Positions 30,191 to 39,394 of a stretch of 64,000 nucleotides of DNA are shown piece after piece. Source of the stretch: Marinilabiliaceae bacterium JC040 (GTDB lineage Bacteria; Bacteroidota; Bacteroidia; Bacteroidales; Marinifilaceae); NCBI GenBank assembly GCA_022496785.1, contig SNAP01000004.1:62001-126000 (forward strand), given 5' to 3'. Numbering within the stretch: the first letter of the stretch is position 1; each line of letters opens with the position of its first letter. The notes under the pieces are model-generated. The model had not been told where the DNA came from, did no database searches, and saw nothing but the letters and a program-made list of their open reading frames with translations. Made by a program: the position numbers and the translations under genes.

Positions 30191-31396
30191 ATGAAAGAAA
30201 TTTGCTTTGTTGGACTTGGTTATATAGGATTACCAACTGCTGCTGTGGTTGCAAGTAAAGGGAATAAAATATTAGGTGTAGATATCAATTTAAATGTTGT
30301 TGAAACTATAAATAAAGGTGAGATACACATTGTTGAACCTGGTTTAAAAGAATTAGTAAAAGATGTAATAGATCAAGGATTTTTAAAAGCTTCTACAAAA
30401 ATAAAAGAATCTGATTATTATATTATTGTTGTTCCGACTCCTTTTAAAGGGAATCATGAACCAGATATTTCTTTTATTGAAACTGTAACCAAAGAAATAA
30501 TTCCTATTTTAAAGAAAGGAGATACTTTTATTATAGAATCAACATCTCCTGTCGGAACAACAGAGAGAATGGCTGAGTATATTTTTTCTAAGAGACCTGA
30601 TTTGCTGAATGAAATATATATTGCTTATTGTCCAGAAAGAGTTCTACCTGGAAATGTATTACATGAATTGGTTTATAATGATAGAGTAATAGGAGGTATA
30701 AATAATAAATCAACAGAAAAAGCTTTTGAATTTTATGAATCATTTGTTGAAGGGGATTTGCATAGGACAAATGCTCGTACAGCAGAAATGTGTAAATTGA
30801 CAGAGAATTCATCACGAGATTCTCAAATTGCTTTTGCAAATGAATTATCATTAATATGTGATAAGGCAAATATTAATGTATGGGAATTAATAAATTTAGC
30901 AAATAAACATCCAAGAGTAAATATTTTAAAACCAGGGTGTGGAGTTGGAGGGCATTGTATAGCAGTTGATCCTTATTTTATTTCTTCTGAATTTCCATTA
31001 GAGGCGAAGATGATATCCACAGCTCGTGAAATAAATAATTATAAAGCCTTCTGGTGCGCAGAAAAGATTAATAATACTGCATTAGAGTTTCAATTGCATA
31101 ATGGAAAGAAACCTAAAATTTCTATAATGGGGTTAGCTTTTAAACCTGATATTGATGATTTGAGAGAATCACCTGCAAAATACATTACTCAGAAGGTAAT
31201 GCAATCATGTAATAATGCAGATTTAATGATTGTTGAACCTAATATAGAGAAGCATAATGTATTTAAACTTACTGATTATACTTTTGCATATAAAGAAGCC
31301 GATATCGTGGTTTTTCTTGTAGCTCATAAAGAGTTTAAATCTTTGAAAATTGATGAAAGTAAAATAATCTTGGATTTTTGTGGGATTTCTAAATAA
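30191..31396 (+). CDS. wecC: UDP-N-acetyl-D-mannosamine dehydrogenase
   Basis: NAD-dependent four-electron oxidation of UDP-ManNAc to UDP-ManNAcA. The nucleotide loop GLGYIGLPTAAVVASKG is at the N terminus. The catalytic C256 is in GCGVGGHCIAVDPYF, and TENSSRDSQIAFANEL is the WecC form of the substrate helix rather than the UDP-glucose form. 401 residues. Its partner epimerase wecB follows directly, which supports the substrate call. The 102-base gap before it holds nothing recognisable. Confidence 0.9.
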   Translation: MKEICFVGLGYIGLPTAAVVASKGNKILGVDINLNVVETINKGEIHIVEPGLKELVKDVIDQGFLKASTKIKESDYYIIVVPTPFKGNHEPDISFIETVTKEIIPILKKGDTFIIESTSPVGTTERMAEYIFSKRPDLLNEIYIAYCPERVLPGNVLHELVYNDRVIGGINNKSTEKAFEFYESFVEGDLHRTNARTAEMCKLTENSSRDSQIAFANELSLICDKANINVWELINLANKHPRVNILKPGCGVGGHCIAVDPYFISSEFPLEAKMISTAREINNYKAFWCAEKINNTALEFQLHNGKKPKISIMGLAFKPDIDDLRESPAKYITQKVMQSCNNADLMIVEPNIEKHNVFKLTDYTFAYKEADIVVFLVAHKEFKSLKIDESKIILDFCGISK

Positions 31397-31403
31397 TATA
31401 TTA

Positions 31404-32552
31404 ATGACAATAAAGAAAGTGATGTTAGTTTTTGGAACCAGACCAGAAGCTATTAAAATGGCTCCCTTAGTAAAGGAACTAGAAAAGTATCCAAATAAAT
31501 ATAAGGTTATTGTTGTAGTAACTGCTCAGCATCGTGAGATGCTAGATCAAGTATTAAGTATATTTAATATAAAACCTGATTATGATCTAGATTTAATGAA
31601 AAAAGGACAAGATTTGTACGATGTAACTTCACGTGTTTTATTAGGAATGCGTGAGGTGTTAAGTAAAAATTCTCCCGATATTGTTCTTGTTCATGGAGAT
31701 ACTACAACTTCTACTGCTGCAGCTTTATCTGCTTTTTATGAACAGATACCAGTAGGTCATGTAGAAGCTGGGTTAAGAACTTATAACATATATTCACCGT
31801 GGCCAGAGGAAGCTAATAGACAATTAACTAGTCGTCTAGCTACATATCATTTTGCACCTACAGAATTAAGTAAAGATAATTTATTAAAAGAGGGTATAAG
31901 TAATGATAAAATATTTGTTACAGGTAATACAGTAATTGATGCTCTTAATATGGTTGTTAATAAATTTAAAAATGATATAGAACTTGAAGAAAAAATAATT
32001 ACAAATCTATCAAAAGCAGGATTTTGTAATGTACGTGGAGAAAGAAAGATAGTTCTAATAACAGGACATAGAAGGGAGAATTTTGGAAATGGTTTCATAA
32101 ATATTTGTGAAGCTATAAAAGAATTAAGTGTTAAATATCCAAATGTTGATTTTATTTATCCTATGCATTTAAATCCAAATGTTAGGAATGCAATTCGAAA
32201 GGTTTTTGGGAATATAAATAATATCTTTGGAAATTTATTTTTTATTGAGCCATTAGAATATCTATCTTTTGTTTACTTAATGGAGAAATCTTCAATTATT
32301 CTAACAGATAGTGGTGGAATTCAAGAAGAAGCTCCTAGTTTAGGTAAACCGGTTTTAGTTATGAGAGATACAACAGAAAGGCCAGAAGCTATTGAGGCAG
32401 GAACTGTCAAATTAGTTGGTACTAATGTAAAACAAATAGTTAATGAAGTTTCAATGTTGCTTGATGATGAAGAATATTATAAAAATATCAGTAAAGCTAT
32501 AAATCCATATGGTGATGGATTTGCTTGTTCAAGAATTTTAAAAAGGTTGTAA
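31404..32552 (+). CDS. wecB: UDP-N-acetylglucosamine 2-epimerase (non-hydrolysing)
   Basis: Interconverts UDP-GlcNAc and UDP-ManNAc. Motifs include FGTRPEAIKMAPL, VHGDTTTSTAAA, GHVEAGLRT and the UDP-binding SDSGGIQEEAPSLGKPVL. ATG 31404 gives MTIKKVMLVFGTRPE and 382 residues; an in-frame ATG at 31380 would overlap wecC by 17 bases and adds a non-conserved lead. With wecC it supplies UDP-ManNAcA for the polymer. Confidence 0.93.
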   Translation: MTIKKVMLVFGTRPEAIKMAPLVKELEKYPNKYKVIVVVTAQHREMLDQVLSIFNIKPDYDLDLMKKGQDLYDVTSRVLLGMREVLSKNSPDIVLVHGDTTTSTAAALSAFYEQIPVGHVEAGLRTYNIYSPWPEEANRQLTSRLATYHFAPTELSKDNLLKEGISNDKIFVTGNTVIDALNMVVNKFKNDIELEEKIITNLSKAGFCNVRGERKIVLITGHRRENFGNGFINICEAIKELSVKYPNVDFIYPMHLNPNVRNAIRKVFGNINNIFGNLFFIEPLEYLSFVYLMEKSSIILTDSGGIQEEAPSLGKPVLVMRDTTERPEAIEAGTVKLVGTNVKQIVNEVSMLLDDEEYYKNISKAINPYGDGFACSRILKRL

Positions 32553-32557
32553 AAGTT

Positions 32558-33583
32558 ATGTTCAAAGATAAGATTTTATTAATTACAGGAGGAACAGGTT
32601 CTTTCGGAAATGCAGTTTTAAGTAGGTTTATTAATTCAGATTTAAAAGAAATCCGAATATTTAGTAGAGATGAAAAGAAACAAGATGAAATGCGTCATAA
32701 ATTGAATAATCCAAAGATTAATTTTGTTATTGGTGATATAAGAGATTTTGACAGTATTAATAATGCTATGAGAAATGTAGATTATGTTTTTAATGCGGCG
32801 GCTTTAAAGCAAGTTCCTTCTTGTGAATTCTATCCAATGCAAGCTGTAAAAACAAATATTTTAGGATCTGAAAATGTATTGGAAGCTGCTGTAAGAAATA
32901 AGGTGAAGAAAATTGTAGTATTAAGTACAGATAAGGCTGCATATCCAATAAACACAATGGGTATGACTAAAGCTATTATGGAAAAATTAGCAATTTCAAA
33001 GTCTAGAGATGCTAGAGCAGTTGAAAATGGAACAATAATTTGTGCTACTAGATACGGAAATGTAATGTGTTCTAGAGGTTCTATAATACCTTTATTTATT
33101 CATCAAATAAAGGAAAACTTACCTATGACCATTACAGTGCCTGAGATGACTAGATTTATGATGTCACTCGATGATGCAGTAGATTTAGTTTTATTTGCTT
33201 TTAATAATGCTTTAGCAGGAGACTTATTTATTCAAAAAGCTCCAGCTGCAACAATTGTTGATTTAGCTCTTGCATTAAAAGAGTTGTTCAAAGTAAATAA
33301 TGAAATTAAAATTATTGGGGCTAGACATGGTGAAAAAATGTATGAATCGCTATGTACAAGTGAGGAAATGTCAAAAGCTATCGATATGGGTGATTTTTAT
33401 AGAGTACCTGCAGATTTACGAGATCTAAACTATACTAAATATGTTGAAAAGTTTGGTAATAGAATAGACTATGAAGAATATAATTCAGATAATACAAATA
33501 GATTAAAAATTGATGAGATTAAGAAATTACTTCTATCTTTAGATTATGTCAAAGATGAACTTGAGAATTATAATATTAATTAA
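32558..33583 (+). CDS. UDP-GlcNAc 4,6-dehydratase, CapE/FnlA-like SDR
   Basis: Soluble short-chain dehydrogenase-type enzyme of the polysaccharide biosynthesis family, likely acting on UDP-GlcNAc (dehydratase, possibly with 5-epimerase activity as in S. aureus CapE). The NAD loop is LLITGGTGSFGNAVLSRF, followed by RDEKKQDEMR and the active-site region STDKAAYPINTMGMTKAIMEK. The frame opens at a TTG (32525), but ATG 32558 gives the conserved MFKDKILLITGG start (341 residues) and clears wecB by five bases. The two aminotransferases downstream could use its keto-sugar product. Confidence 0.88.
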   Translation: MFKDKILLITGGTGSFGNAVLSRFINSDLKEIRIFSRDEKKQDEMRHKLNNPKINFVIGDIRDFDSINNAMRNVDYVFNAAALKQVPSCEFYPMQAVKTNILGSENVLEAAVRNKVKKIVVLSTDKAAYPINTMGMTKAIMEKLAISKSRDARAVENGTIICATRYGNVMCSRGSIIPLFIHQIKENLPMTITVPEMTRFMMSLDDAVDLVLFAFNNALAGDLFIQKAPAATIVDLALALKELFKVNNEIKIIGARHGEKMYESLCTSEEMSKAIDMGDFYRVPADLRDLNYTKYVEKFGNRIDYEEYNSDNTNRLKIDEIKKLLLSLDYVKDELENYNIN

Positions 33584-33595
33584 TACATTAATCAT

Positions 33596-34693
33596 ATGAA
33601 AACTCTAATTCCATTAATAAAACCTTATATTCCACCAAAGAATATATTAATGCCAGCTATAGAAGAAATCTTATATAGTGGTTATATCGCTGAAGGTAAA
33701 GAAGTTTATGAATTTGAAGATATGTTTAAAGCCTATATTGGTAATAAATATTGTTTAGCTGTACATTCTGGAACTGATGCTTTACATTTAGCTTTAAAAT
33801 TAGCAGGAGTTAAACCAGATGATGAAGTTATCAGCACACCTTTAACTGCAGAACCTACAAATACTACTATTGCTATGATGGGAGCAAAAGTTATTTGGGC
33901 TGATATTGATATAAATAATGGCTTAATAGATCCAGATTCTGTTGTGAAGTTAATAACTTCTAAAACAAAAGCAATAGTAGTTGTACATTATGCAGGAATG
34001 GTTTGTGATATGAATAGATTAAATAAAATATCTAAGGATTATAATATACCAATAATAGAAGATTCAGCTCACGCTATGGGTGCAAAATATAAAGGGAAAT
34101 ATATAGGAACAAATTCTCCTTATACTATATTTTCTTTACAGGCAATTAAGCAAATGACAACAATTGATGGTGGATTTCTGTGTGTAAAAAATGAAGAAGA
34201 TTATACAAATGGAAGATTAATGCGGTGGTTTGGATTGGATAAAACAAAATCTCGTTTGGATAATGATATAAAAACAGTTGGATATAAATATGCAATGAAT
34301 AATGTAAATGCAACAGTTGGAAAAATTCAAATGCATTTTTTAGACAAAGTATTAGATAAGTATATATCCAATGGTAAGTATTATGATAAAGAATTATGTG
34401 GGATTAAAGGTATAGAGTTAGTAAAATATTCTGATGATACCGAACCTTCTTATTGGTTATATACGATGAAAGTAGAAAGAAGAGATTCTTTTATTAAAAT
34501 GTTGGAATCTAATGGTGTAATTGCTTCACCATTACATCATCGTAATGATACGCATAGTATTTTTGCGGATTCAAAACGATTATTACCAAACATGGATAAA
34601 TTTTATAATTCATTTGTCCATATACCTTGTGGTTGGTGGGTAAATGAAACTGATAGAAAATTTATTGTAGATTGTATTAAATCTGGTTGGTAG
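33596..34693 (+). CDS. DegT/DnrJ/EryC1/StrS sugar aminotransferase
   Basis: PLP enzyme adding an amino group to a keto-sugar nucleotide. The fold-I pattern is complete: HSGTDALHLALKL (phosphate site), EDSAHAMGAKYKGK (PLP-binding Asp) and FSLQAIKQMTTIDGG with the Schiff-base lysine K185. 365 residues. It lies 12 bases after the dehydratase and one base before a related gene that lacks this lysine. Substrate is probably the 4-keto (or 3-keto) UDP sugar made nearby. Confidence 0.9.
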   Translation: MKTLIPLIKPYIPPKNILMPAIEEILYSGYIAEGKEVYEFEDMFKAYIGNKYCLAVHSGTDALHLALKLAGVKPDDEVISTPLTAEPTNTTIAMMGAKVIWADIDINNGLIDPDSVVKLITSKTKAIVVVHYAGMVCDMNRLNKISKDYNIPIIEDSAHAMGAKYKGKYIGTNSPYTIFSLQAIKQMTTIDGGFLCVKNEEDYTNGRLMRWFGLDKTKSRLDNDIKTVGYKYAMNNVNATVGKIQMHFLDKVLDKYISNGKYYDKELCGIKGIELVKYSDDTEPSYWLYTMKVERRDSFIKMLESNGVIASPLHHRNDTHSIFADSKRLLPNMDKFYNSFVHIPCGWWVNETDRKFIVDCIKSGW

Positions 34694-34694
34694 T

Positions 34695-35756
34695 ATGAAG
34701 AATCTATTTAAGCCGTATATATCAAATGAACTAGAAGATTTGAATGATATACTAAAATCTGGTTCTTTATCATATAATAATTGGGGAAGAAAATTTGAAA
34801 AACTAATTGAGAAATTTGTTGGTGTCAAAAATGTAGTTTCAACTAATACATATTCTAATGCAATAAATGTTGCATTAGCTACTTTAGGTTTAAAACAAGG
34901 TGATGAAGTTATTGCTTCACCTATGAGTTGCGTTGCATCTAATATGCCATTACTAAATTATGGATTAAAAATTAAATGGTGTGATATAGATCCTAAAACA
35001 GGAACTTTATCTCCAGATTATTTGCGTACAATCATTTCCAAAAGGACAAAGTTGATAGTCCATAATCATTTTTGTGGTTATGTTGGATATGTTGATGAAA
35101 TTAATGATATAGCTCGAAATTATTCAATACCTGTAATTGATGATTGTATTGAAGCATTTGGATCTGAATATAAAGGTAAAAAAGTAGGAAATTTAAAAAC
35201 AGATATAACTATATTTTCATTTCAAACAGTTCGATTGCCAAATACAATAGAAGGTGGAGCTATTATTTTTAATAGTGAAGAATTATATGAAAAATCATTA
35301 TTGTTAAGAGATTTAGGGATAAATAGGAAAAATTTTAGAGATGATTTTAATGAAATTTCAGAAAGTTGTGATATAATAACACCTGGGTATGCTGCAATGC
35401 CTAATGAAGTTTCTAGTTATTTTGGTTGTGTTCAAATGAATGAAATTGAAAAATTGTTAGTTCAGCAAAATGTTAATGCTAATAATTTATCAATTTGGTT
35501 AGATTCTAAATATCCAGAAATATATAGAATGAATTCTAGAAAAGAAATCAATCCTAATTATTGGGTATTTGGAATTATTGTGGATAATAAAATAGAAATG
35601 CTAAAGAAATTTAGAGAATTAGGTTTTTATGCCTCAGGAGTGCATATTAAAAATAATATTTATTCAGTGTTTGATTCAAAGATAGATTTAGAGGGAGTTA
35701 ATGAATTTAATAATAAATTTTTAGCCTTACCTTCGGGTTGGTGGATAAATAATTAA
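34695..35756 (+). CDS. DegT/DnrJ family protein with Arg in place of the PLP lysine
   Basis: Paralogue of the preceding gene (353 residues, same fold blocks: STNTYSNAINVALA, DDCIEAFGSEYKGKK). At the lysine position it reads FSFQTVRLPNTIEGG: the codon at 35232-35234 is CGA, giving R180. Without a Schiff-base lysine it cannot act as an ordinary aminotransferase. Known exceptions in the family (for example ColD with His) are dehydratases; it could also be a regulatory partner of the first enzyme. The gene is otherwise intact and tightly packed in the operon. Confidence 0.85.
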   Translation: MKNLFKPYISNELEDLNDILKSGSLSYNNWGRKFEKLIEKFVGVKNVVSTNTYSNAINVALATLGLKQGDEVIASPMSCVASNMPLLNYGLKIKWCDIDPKTGTLSPDYLRTIISKRTKLIVHNHFCGYVGYVDEINDIARNYSIPVIDDCIEAFGSEYKGKKVGNLKTDITIFSFQTVRLPNTIEGGAIIFNSEELYEKSLLLRDLGINRKNFRDDFNEISESCDIITPGYAAMPNEVSSYFGCVQMNEIEKLLVQQNVNANNLSIWLDSKYPEIYRMNSRKEINPNYWVFGIIVDNKIEMLKKFRELGFYASGVHIKNNIYSVFDSKIDLEGVNEFNNKFLALPSGWWINN

Positions 35757-35759
35757 GAT

Positions 35760-36437
35760 ATGAAAATAATATTTTTAGCTTATAGAGATTGGGCTATGCC
35801 AGTTTTTGTCACAATAGAAAAACATCCAAAAGTTTCTAAATGTATACTTTGTAAAACAAAGAAAGAACTTTTGAAATATAATTTATTAGATTTTGATTTA
35901 ATAATATCTTGTGGTTGGAGTGAGGAATTAGGTGAAGAAATAACAAGTAAAATTCCTGCAATTGGCGTGCATTGTGCAGAATTAGATAGATATTCTTACG
36001 GTACACCTATTCAATTGCAAATAATTGATGGTATTACTAGGTCAAAACATAGAGTGTTTAGTTTTACGTACGATAAAAATTCGAAAAGAGCTCATACGCA
36101 TAATAGATTGTATTCACATGAAGTTGATTTAGATCTTTCTGGAAATATGAAAGATATATTGGAGCAATTAACTGTAACTAGTAAAGTTTTGTTTGCCAGG
36201 TTTTTAGATGATTATCCTAATATTAGTTGGAAACAATGGCCTAAAGAGTCACAAATAAGATCTGCTAGAAAACCTAATGATAGTATATTGTCAATGAAAA
36301 ACTTTTCAAATATGACAACAGAACAATTATATAATTTTTTTAGATGTTTGGAGGATCCATATCCTAATGGTGGAATTGAGGATGAGGATGGAATACTATA
36401 TATAAAAGAAGTTAGATATAAAAAGAAAGTTAAATAA
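35760..36437 (+). CDS. Formyltransferase-family protein
   Basis: Resembles methionyl-tRNA and sugar N-formyltransferases, which use N10-formyltetrahydrofolate. H71 in IGVHCAELDRYSYGTP corresponds to the catalytic His and RKPNDSILSMKNFSNMTTEQL matches the conserved C-terminal block of the family. The usual Asn two residues before the His is G69, and no clear DxG catalytic Asp is seen, so activity may differ. After two aminotransferase-like genes, N-formylation of an amino sugar is the natural guess. 225 residues. Confidence 0.7.
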   Translation: MKIIFLAYRDWAMPVFVTIEKHPKVSKCILCKTKKELLKYNLLDFDLIISCGWSEELGEEITSKIPAIGVHCAELDRYSYGTPIQLQIIDGITRSKHRVFSFTYDKNSKRAHTHNRLYSHEVDLDLSGNMKDILEQLTVTSKVLFARFLDDYPNISWKQWPKESQIRSARKPNDSILSMKNFSNMTTEQLYNFFRCLEDPYPNGGIEDEDGILYIKEVRYKKKVK

Positions 36438-37362: not shown

Positions 37363-38037
37363 ATGAAAGATATAATTATTCTTGGAGCTGGAGGTGCGGC
37401 GTTAAATATTTTAGAGTATATTGAAGATATTAATGAGTTATCATTAACTTGGAATATACTAGGTTTATTAGATGATAATATAAACTTGCACAATTCTGAG
37501 ATTATGGGATATAAAGTATTAGGTTCTATCGAAGATTCTATAAAATGGCCTAATGCTTTTTATATTTCTTCAATTGGATCTGCCCAAGATCTCGAATTAA
37601 GAAAATTAGTTAGAGATAAAGTTCCTTTTTCGAATGATAGTTTTGCAACAATTATTCATCCTAAGGCTCACGTTTCTAAAACTGCAATAATTGAACCAGG
37701 TTGTATTATTTGTCCATTTACATCTTTACAATCTCATACTCATATCAAGCATGATAGCTATATTACTTCTTTTACATTAGTAGGACATGAATCTGTTATA
37801 GGGGAGCATTGTGTTGTTGCTGGTAGAACAATGATTGCAGGTAGTGCAATTATCGGTGATTGTACATATATTGGCTGTGGTTCTACATTGAAGCATGAAA
37901 TATTTATTGGAGATCATTGTATGATAGGAATGGGGGCTGTTCTTTGGAAAAATGCTGAACCTTTTTCAAAGTATTATGCACCTCATGCAAGAACTAAAGA
38001 AGAAAGAATTATAGAAAAAAATATCTTTAAAAATTAA
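37363..38037 (+). CDS. Sugar O/N-acyltransferase, NeuD/PglD type
   Basis: Left-handed beta-helix acyltransferase. The N-terminal small Rossmann region (DIIILGAGGAALNILEYIED) binds the sugar nucleotide, and hexapeptide repeats cover about residues 95-210 (TAIIEPGCIICPFTSL, SVIGEHCVVAGRTMIAGSA). This layout is that of PglD, which acetylates the amino group of 4-amino sugars. 224 residues. It fits with the aminotransferases upstream; the following MaoC and CitE-like genes leave open a donor other than acetyl-CoA. Confidence 0.85.
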   Translation: MKDIIILGAGGAALNILEYIEDINELSLTWNILGLLDDNINLHNSEIMGYKVLGSIEDSIKWPNAFYISSIGSAQDLELRKLVRDKVPFSNDSFATIIHPKAHVSKTAIIEPGCIICPFTSLQSHTHIKHDSYITSFTLVGHESVIGEHCVVAGRTMIAGSAIIGDCTYIGCGSTLKHEIFIGDHCMIGMGAVLWKNAEPFSKYYAPHARTKEERIIEKNIFKN

Positions 38038-38039
38038 TT

Positions 38040-38501
38040 ATGCAAGAAAGTATTTTAGGCCATTTTTATGATGATTTTATTGAGAATGAGATTATATATC
38101 ATTCTCTTTCTAAGACAATATTTGAGAGTGATAATAATTTTTTTTCATTAATGACAATGAATCATCATCCTGTACATACTAACTTAAATTATGCGAAAAA
38201 TAATCAACATAAAAAAATATTAGTAGTAGGTACATTAGTTTTTTCATTAGCTGTTGGAATTACTGTTCCTGATATTAGTGGAAAAGCTATTGCTAATTTA
38301 GAATATAGTGATATAAGACACCTAAATCCTGTCTTCATAAATGATACAATATATGTTAGAAGTAAAATTGTAAAAAAAATCAAATCTAAAACTAAGGATG
38401 ATAGAGGTGTTATTTATGTTGAATCTATTGCTTATAATCAAGATAAAATAGATGTATTATCATTTAAAAGAAGAGTTTTAGTAAAGATTAATACTAAGTG
38501 A
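38040..38501 (+). CDS. MaoC-like hot-dog dehydratase/hydratase
   Basis: Hot-dog fold protein of the (R)-specific enoyl-CoA hydratase type. The hydratase-2 motif is recognisable in MTMNHHPVHTNLNYAKN (the pattern with Asp/His replaced partly by Asn/His). 153 residues. Relatives hydrate mesaconyl- or crotonyl-CoA. It lies 2 bases after the acyltransferase gene and 2 before a CitE-like lyase, so the two probably work on one CoA ester inside this operon. Confidence 0.8.
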   Translation: MQESILGHFYDDFIENEIIYHSLSKTIFESDNNFFSLMTMNHHPVHTNLNYAKNNQHKKILVVGTLVFSLAVGITVPDISGKAIANLEYSDIRHLNPVFINDTIYVRSKIVKKIKSKTKDDRGVIYVESIAYNQDKIDVLSFKRRVLVKINTK

Positions 38502-38503
38502 TA

Positions 38504-39394
38504 ATGAAGAAACAAGAAAATTATTTAATGCGTAGTTTAATGTTTGTTCCTGCGCATAATCAGAAGTTATTAAATAGTAGTTTGAAGAGAAATGCTGACG
38601 TTTTATTGTTAGATATTGAAGATTCAGTTCCAGAAAATGATAAGCAACTATCGAGAGATAACATAAAGAAATTTGTTAGAAATCCAAACTTAAATAATCA
38701 ATTGATTTTTCCTAGAGTAAATGATATTGAAAGTGGACACCTTCTTCAAGATGCTTATCAATTAACAATTGATGGTATAGCAGGATTTATGTATCCCAAG
38801 GCAACAAAAGCTGAGGATATTTATTTTTTTGGTAAACTACTTGAAACTATAGAAAGTGAAAAAGGGTATCCTGAAGGTACATTTAAAATAATTCCTTTAA
38901 TAGAAACTCCAGGAGCGGTGATGAATATTAGTAAAATTTGTTGTTCTTCTAAGAGAGTTATAGCTGTAGCTTTTGGATGTGAAGATTATGTTACAGATTT
39001 ACGTGGAAATCACGACGAATTTGATCAAAGTATATTTTTTGCTCGTAACATGATTGTTAATGGAGCTAGAGCTTGTGGAGTTATTCCTATAGACACTGTA
39101 CATATCAAAGTTCACGATTTAGAAGATCTTGAAAGAAATCTAAAAGTTTCTAGAGATCTTGGATTTGAAGGAATGTTGGTTTTAAATCCTAAGGAATTAC
39201 CTTTAGTACATAAATATTATTCACCTAGTGAAAGTGAAATCAAATGGGCAAAAGATATGATTGAATTATCTATTGAGGCTGTTGATAAAGGAAAAGGAGT
39301 AGCTGTTAAAGAAAATAAATTTATAGGTCCTCCTATGGTAAAAATGGCTAATGAGATATTAGATAAAATTGAATTAATATCATCAAAGTCATAA
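38504..39394 (+). CDS. HpcH/HpaI-CitE family CoA-ester lyase
   Basis: TIM-barrel aldolase family that includes citrate lyase beta, malyl-CoA and citramalyl-CoA lyases. Visible blocks are MRSLMFVPAHNQKLL, LLLDIEDSVPENDK, FPRVND (substrate Arg), PLIETPGAV (metal Glu) and AFGCEDYVTDLRG. 296 residues from ATG 38504; a GTG two codons earlier overlaps the previous stop. With the MaoC-like gene it could form or cleave a beta-hydroxy acyl-CoA used to decorate the polymer. Confidence 0.85.
   Translation: MKKQENYLMRSLMFVPAHNQKLLNSSLKRNADVLLLDIEDSVPENDKQLSRDNIKKFVRNPNLNNQLIFPRVNDIESGHLLQDAYQLTIDGIAGFMYPKATKAEDIYFFGKLLETIESEKGYPEGTFKIIPLIETPGAVMNISKICCSSKRVIAVAFGCEDYVTDLRGNHDEFDQSIFFARNMIVNGARACGVIPIDTVHIKVHDLEDLERNLKVSRDLGFEGMLVLNPKELPLVHKYYSPSESEIKWAKDMIELSIEAVDKGKGVAVKENKFIGPPMVKMANEILDKIELISSKS

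Follow-up and report, generated by a model that had tools for sequence, protein, structure and literature searches.

A conserved DegT-fold clade with arginine at the Schiff-base lysine site, encoded beside a lysine-bearing paralogue

The window analysed here, 64,000 nucleotides from Marinilabiliaceae bacterium JC040 (contig SNAP01000004.1, positions 62,001 to 126,000), holds two tandem genes of the DegT/DnrJ/EryC1/StrS family on the forward strand, with one base between the stop codon of the first and the ATG of the second. The first (window positions 33596-34693) encodes K, a predicted sugar aminotransferase of 365 residues in which the motif FSLQAIKQMTTIDGG carries the Schiff-base lysine, K185 (codon AAG at 34148-34150). 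The second (34695-35756) encodes R, a paralogue of 353 residues whose ORF translation reads FSFQTVRLPNTIEGG and places Arg180 (CGA, 35232-35234) at this site. This raises the question of what a DegT-fold protein does without its lysine beside a partner that has kept it.

Both proteins match PF01041, K at 283 bits and R at 189.5 bits against a Pfam cut-off of 19.8, so R belongs to the family. The two share 32% identity over 354 columns and the pairwise alignment sets R180 opposite K185, bearing out the earlier note's claim that arginine replaces the PLP lysine. The AlphaFold2 model of R shows an intact fold (mean pLDDT 95.8; 94.3 for K), as had also been claimed, without the final C-terminal helix present in K. 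In these monomer models the Arg loop of R reaches pLDDT 95-96 without cofactor, compared with 70 for the Lys loop of K, which weakly favours the PLP-free reading of R proposed below. The nearest solved folds to the R model are CalS13 and AtmS13 (Z 44-45, 45.3 to CalS13; rmsd 1.8-2.0 over 344-346 residues; PDB 4xau, 4zwv, 4zas), which are also the closest solved proteins to K and have a C-terminal GWW motif in common with the pair. Unlike R, with its arginine and altered phosphate loop, they are single Lys-bearing aminotransferases. Membership of R in a named aminotransferase family was ruled out for PseC, LegC, WecE and ArnB, whose models scored R far under every cut-off, and no NCBIfam equivalog covering R was found.

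A first search for relatives returned six R orthologues, all with Arg at the lysine site within the motif VRLPN[TA]I[DE]GG, as in the R of the window. The resulting seven-sequence alignment was used to scan 84,980 species genomes, giving 45 loci at 45-60% identity before a sharp fall to 35% or less. The window added one more, the family four and a phylum-wide search another four, for 54 distinct R loci in all. The site is Arg in all 54 and never a Lys codon; all six Arg codons are in use (CGT 14, AGA 14, CGA 13, AGG 6, CGG 4, CGC 3), so the lone mutation that the earlier note had allowed for does not account for it. The hosts are Bacteroidota, Bacillota (Paenibacillus, Lachnospiraceae, Oscillospiraceae and others) and Vibrionaceae, and no R-clade member was found in plasmids, phage or E. 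coli (best identities 26.7% and 27.7%; no DNA match). Close R pairs in which synonymous sites are unsaturated gave an approximate dN/dS of about 0.1-0.16, a sign of purifying selection (for example, dN of 0.09, 0.06 and 0.02 versus dS of 0.55, 0.60 and 0.20, respectively). A relocated Schiff-base lysine, the other objection raised in the earlier note, is not apparent either: no lysine elsewhere is invariant in the R clade, and the best candidate, K6 (49 of 52), is common to the K clade.

R was accompanied in every case by K. A K-clade gene lies upstream of R on the same strand, within 5.7 kb, at 54 of 54 loci, and the gap between them is below 60 nt in 33 of these. R and K match identical sets of genomes, 5 of 395 from the phylum and 7 of 97 relatives; the genome of the window sits in both samples, which leaves 11 distinct genomes with the pair. 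At the thresholds used, neither gene was found without the other in these genomes, the phylum searches having scored the top first-look candidates, so that distant members may have been missed. Pairwise distances of R and K are correlated (r = 0.44; the highest of 2000 permutations was 0.23), and the correlations of R and K with the neighbouring dehydratase are lower (0.21 and 0.28, respectively). No K-R gene fusion was seen among the loci read. The arginine thus marks a clade paired with a Lys-bearing paralogue, the pattern that the earlier note had proposed to look for. Because the Arg-bearing pair recurs in distantly related bacteria, R is predicted to be kept as a partner that does not transaminate, rather than to be a broken gene.

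The origin of the pair was examined through trees and second copies. R is monophyletic (SH-aLRT 100 in one tree, bootstrap/aLRT 100/100 in another), as is K (SH-aLRT 99; 100/99), and the two resolve as sister clades in these trees. Second copies that still bear the lysine fall on the R side of the tree in Pirellula (L071), Burkholderiales (L074 and L138) and an unassigned locus (L072), although the branch uniting them with R, at 91/82, is not decisive. L071, L074 and L138 adjoin a K-clade gene, which, given that branch, suggests that the pairing is older than the loss of the lysine. The same cassette of dehydratase, K, second copy and N-acyltransferase surrounds Lys-bearing and Arg-bearing versions alike. 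A betaproteobacterial second-copy DegT (L073:4038-5162) has Arg at the lysine site and is nested among Lys-bearing sisters (100/99, 100/98); this single sequence suggests an independent Lys-to-Arg change.

To compare the pockets, we aligned 52 R with 56 K proteins and took the site roles from relatives of known structure. Spr1654 and Pcryo_0638 have an Asp at N1 of PLP, His or Gln at O3', Thr and Ser at the phosphate, a Lys at the donor carboxylate (Lys241 in ArnB), and Lys215/Tyr229 of the other subunit at the UDP diphosphate (PMC5936713, PMC8040287). The K clade retains all family site residues but the aromatic over the PLP ring. Ala85 (Ala in 54 of 56) stands where other sugar aminotransferases pack an aromatic on the ring, and a TAEPTN motif invariant in the clade occupies its place. 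Of the classical PLP contacts, R retains Asp150 at N1 (52/52) and Ser175 at the phosphate (47/52). The O3' residue, His159 in K, is Glu153 in R (49/52; Asp in the other three), Gly59 of the phosphate loop is Phe or Tyr in 47 of 52, and the phosphate Thr60 is replaced by a variable residue (N in 19, S in 13, A in 6, H in 4, with T kept in 4). The donor site, Lys231 in all 56 K proteins, is Gly (28), Ser (16), Ala (5) or Asn (3) in R. We take this position (Lys241 in ArnB, Asn227 in WbpE) to be a residue of the partner subunit, as in the WbpE and PseC structures. Possible cross-subunit residues are both kept in R (Arg211, Arg215) and lost (the donor-site residue), the assignment to the partner subunit coming from homologues. 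The lost sites are among the ordinary columns of R, at the 57th to 78th entropy percentile. Invariant in all 52 are C79, D150, R180, R211, R215, H317, N320 and Y323, and nearly so are N183 and H125 (49/52 each).

On these residues, R is predicted to be unable to use the lysine mechanism of the DegT family. It reads as a re-tooled and strictly kept pocket in which a nucleotide sugar should still fit, not as a decayed transaminase. By residue homology R would be PLP-free; weak binding of PLP or PMP is possible, because Asp150 and Ser175 are kept.

The neighbouring genes indicate the pathway in which the pair may act. The window carries, in order, homologues of the UDP-sugar dehydrogenase WecC (30191-31396) and the UDP-GlcNAc 2-epimerase WecB (31380-32552), both common to several R loci, an FnlA/PseB-type UDP-GlcNAc 4,6-dehydratase (32525-33583; TIGR04130 at 513 bits, cut-off 730), K, R, a formyltransferase-like gene (35760-36437), a glycosyltransferase, a NeuD/PglD-type hexapeptide sugar N-acyltransferase recognised from model matches (37363-38037), MaoC and CitE-like genes and a flippase. 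The genes given here with coordinates lie on the forward strand. The start of the dehydratase, the expected source of a 4-keto sugar for K, is uncertain: Met at 32558 is likely, and a start at TTG 32525 would fall within the upstream gene. The formyltransferase-like protein, identified through weak model matches and neighbour clustering, is a candidate for N-formylation of the new amino group, with homologues beside R in L050 and L056 too; the NeuD-like enzyme would be the alternative for acylation. Across the 49 R loci analysed, an FnlA/CapE-type UDP-GlcNAc 4,6-dehydratase is present in 45 and an N-acylating type (GNAT, LpxD-like hexapeptide, formyltransferase, ATP-grasp or KAS III-like acyl supply) in 46, two of the remaining three being contig ends. 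The predicted cassette consists of the dehydratase, K, R and one N-acyl or formyl transferase, and fits a single 4-amino group that K installs and that is subsequently acylated, with no obvious second amination for R.

Several loci carry further genes around this cassette. The MaoC-type hydratase and CitE/HpcH-like lyase of the window (38040-39394), flanked by the NeuD-like acyltransferase on one side and the flippase on the other, suggest a dedicated, unusual acyl group for sugar N-acylation. KAS III-like genes adjoin R at five loci (L029, L032, L035, L039 and L042), in most together with an SDR gene, likewise a hint that the amino sugar carries special acyl groups. At L065, L051 and L052, an ATP-grasp ligase and a HAD-like protein lie beside R at the place of the acyltransferase in other loci, which suggests ligation of an amino acid to the amino sugar.

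How, then, should the missing lysine be read? That R is a decaying duplicate or carries a lone mutation has a negligible probability: beyond the missing lysine nothing speaks for it, and it is opposed by an arginine fixed through six codons, dN far below dS, an intact fold and obligate linkage to K. The earlier judgement that decay is unlikely therefore holds. A lysine-less member of this family has a precedent in the dehydratases ColD and CDP-6-deoxy-L-threo-D-glycero-4-hexulose-3-dehydrase (E1; PDB titles), and R might be a PMP-dependent dehydratase of that kind, with Arg standing in for His and Asp150 and Ser175 retained. We consider this very unlikely. ColD and E1 pair their His with a working PMP site, whereas R has Arg at all 54 loci, a poor proton acceptor, its Gly59-Thr60 phosphate loop has become Phe/Tyr and a variable residue, the donor residue is lost and the O3' His is Glu; nor do 3-deoxysugar genes occur among the shared neighbours of R loci. 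The comparison with ColD made at the outset stands insofar as another residue occupies the lysine site, but does not extend to mechanism, because the PLP-phosphate loop, without which a PMP-dependent dehydratase could not work, is lost from R as well. A stand-alone, cofactor-free enzyme acting on the UDP-4-keto (or amino) sugar, such as a C3/C5 epimerase or tautomerase with Glu153, Asp150, His123/125, Cys79 and Arg180 as acid/base groups, is unlikely but deserves more weight. Its polar pocket is invariant, at least as conserved as that of K, the UDP-sugar contacts are retained, and 4-keto sugars enolise readily, so that no cofactor is needed. Yet the cassette is the same with Lys-bearing second copies, so such a step would have to be older than the Lys-to-Arg change or independent of it; epimerisation is already within the reach of FnlA-type dehydratases, and no known cofactor-free enzyme of the DegT fold was found. 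In a wider form, R would be a cofactor-free enzyme or catalytic subunit in which Arg180 and the acidic cluster replace PLP chemically and spatially, and would isomerise the UDP-4-keto sugar or reshape it in another way before or after amination by K, a proposal that we hold only tentatively.

R could instead be the structural half of an obligate K-R heterodimer whose single working site lies in K and is completed by R. The precedent is serine palmitoyltransferase, in which SPT1 (LCB1), a fold-type I PLP paralogue, lacks the lysine of its obligatory partner SPT2 (LCB2) (PMC6148460); R resembles SPT1 in being a Lys-less paralogue encoded with its Lys-bearing partner at all 54 loci and in identical genome sets. 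R and K are sister paralogues of one duplication, always co-encoded and co-inherited, two-lysine pairs occur in the same cassette (L071, L074, L138), each cassette has one amino group to make, and R keeps the UDP-diphosphate residue Arg211, an other-subunit position in Pcryo_0638 (PMC8040287). Against this, the donor-site residue is Gly, Ser or Ala in R and invariant in K, the opposite of what an R-completed K site would require. SPT1 also belongs to another family and lacks its pocket residues, whereas the pocket of R is invariant and re-tooled; the solved relatives are homodimers. Separate K2 and R2 sites fit better, because the donor/phosphate residue lost in R, which homologues place on the partner subunit, is invariant in K. 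The simplest heterodimer, with R completing the K active site, is mildly disfavoured, and we regard the reading modelled on SPT1 as possible but rather improbable. An R-K heterodimer in general, as suggested in the earlier note, is plausible, given the obligate co-occurrence and co-inheritance.

The explanation that we favour, with an even chance of being correct, is that R is a PLP-free, UDP-sugar-binding protein, a dedicated companion of K in making one 4-amino (then 4-N-acyl or 4-N-formyl) deoxysugar of a surface polysaccharide. We prefer it because the lysine, phosphate loop and donor residue are lost while the sugar-nucleotide residues and the linkage to K are kept. The UDP-GlcNAc 4,6-dehydratase would make the 4-keto sugar, K would aminate it and the N-acyl or formyl transferase would then act. 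In R, Arg180, Glu153 and the retained Asp150 would form a charged cluster at the old place of the PLP ring and Phe/Tyr53 would fill the phosphate cup; side chains may thus stand in for the cofactor and leave the sugar site above open. R would serve K by holding, passing on or adjusting the labile UDP-4-keto (or 4-amino) sugar, most likely within a complex of the two proteins that leaves each with a site of its own.

Compared with PseC, ArnB, WbpE and Pcryo_0638, of whose kind K is, R has the same fold, the Asp at N1 of PLP, the phosphate Ser, the His near the sugar and the UDP-sugar contact positions, but lacks the Lys, Thr60, the O3' His/Gln and the donor Lys/Asn. We found no description of a Lys-less, Arg-bearing DegT clade in the open-access literature, a scope that leaves out most subscription journals. 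Databases call these genes 'DegT family aminotransferase', yet they form a clade across several phyla that is predicted to be unable to transaminate by the family mechanism. Two-lysine pairs followed by lysine-arginine pairs, with the arginine apparently gained twice, make up a natural series for studying how the cofactor is lost from one copy of a duplicated PLP enzyme and what that copy does afterwards. Where DegT genes are counted as amino groups, the wrong sugar would be predicted for many surface-polysaccharide loci of Bacteroidota and Clostridia.
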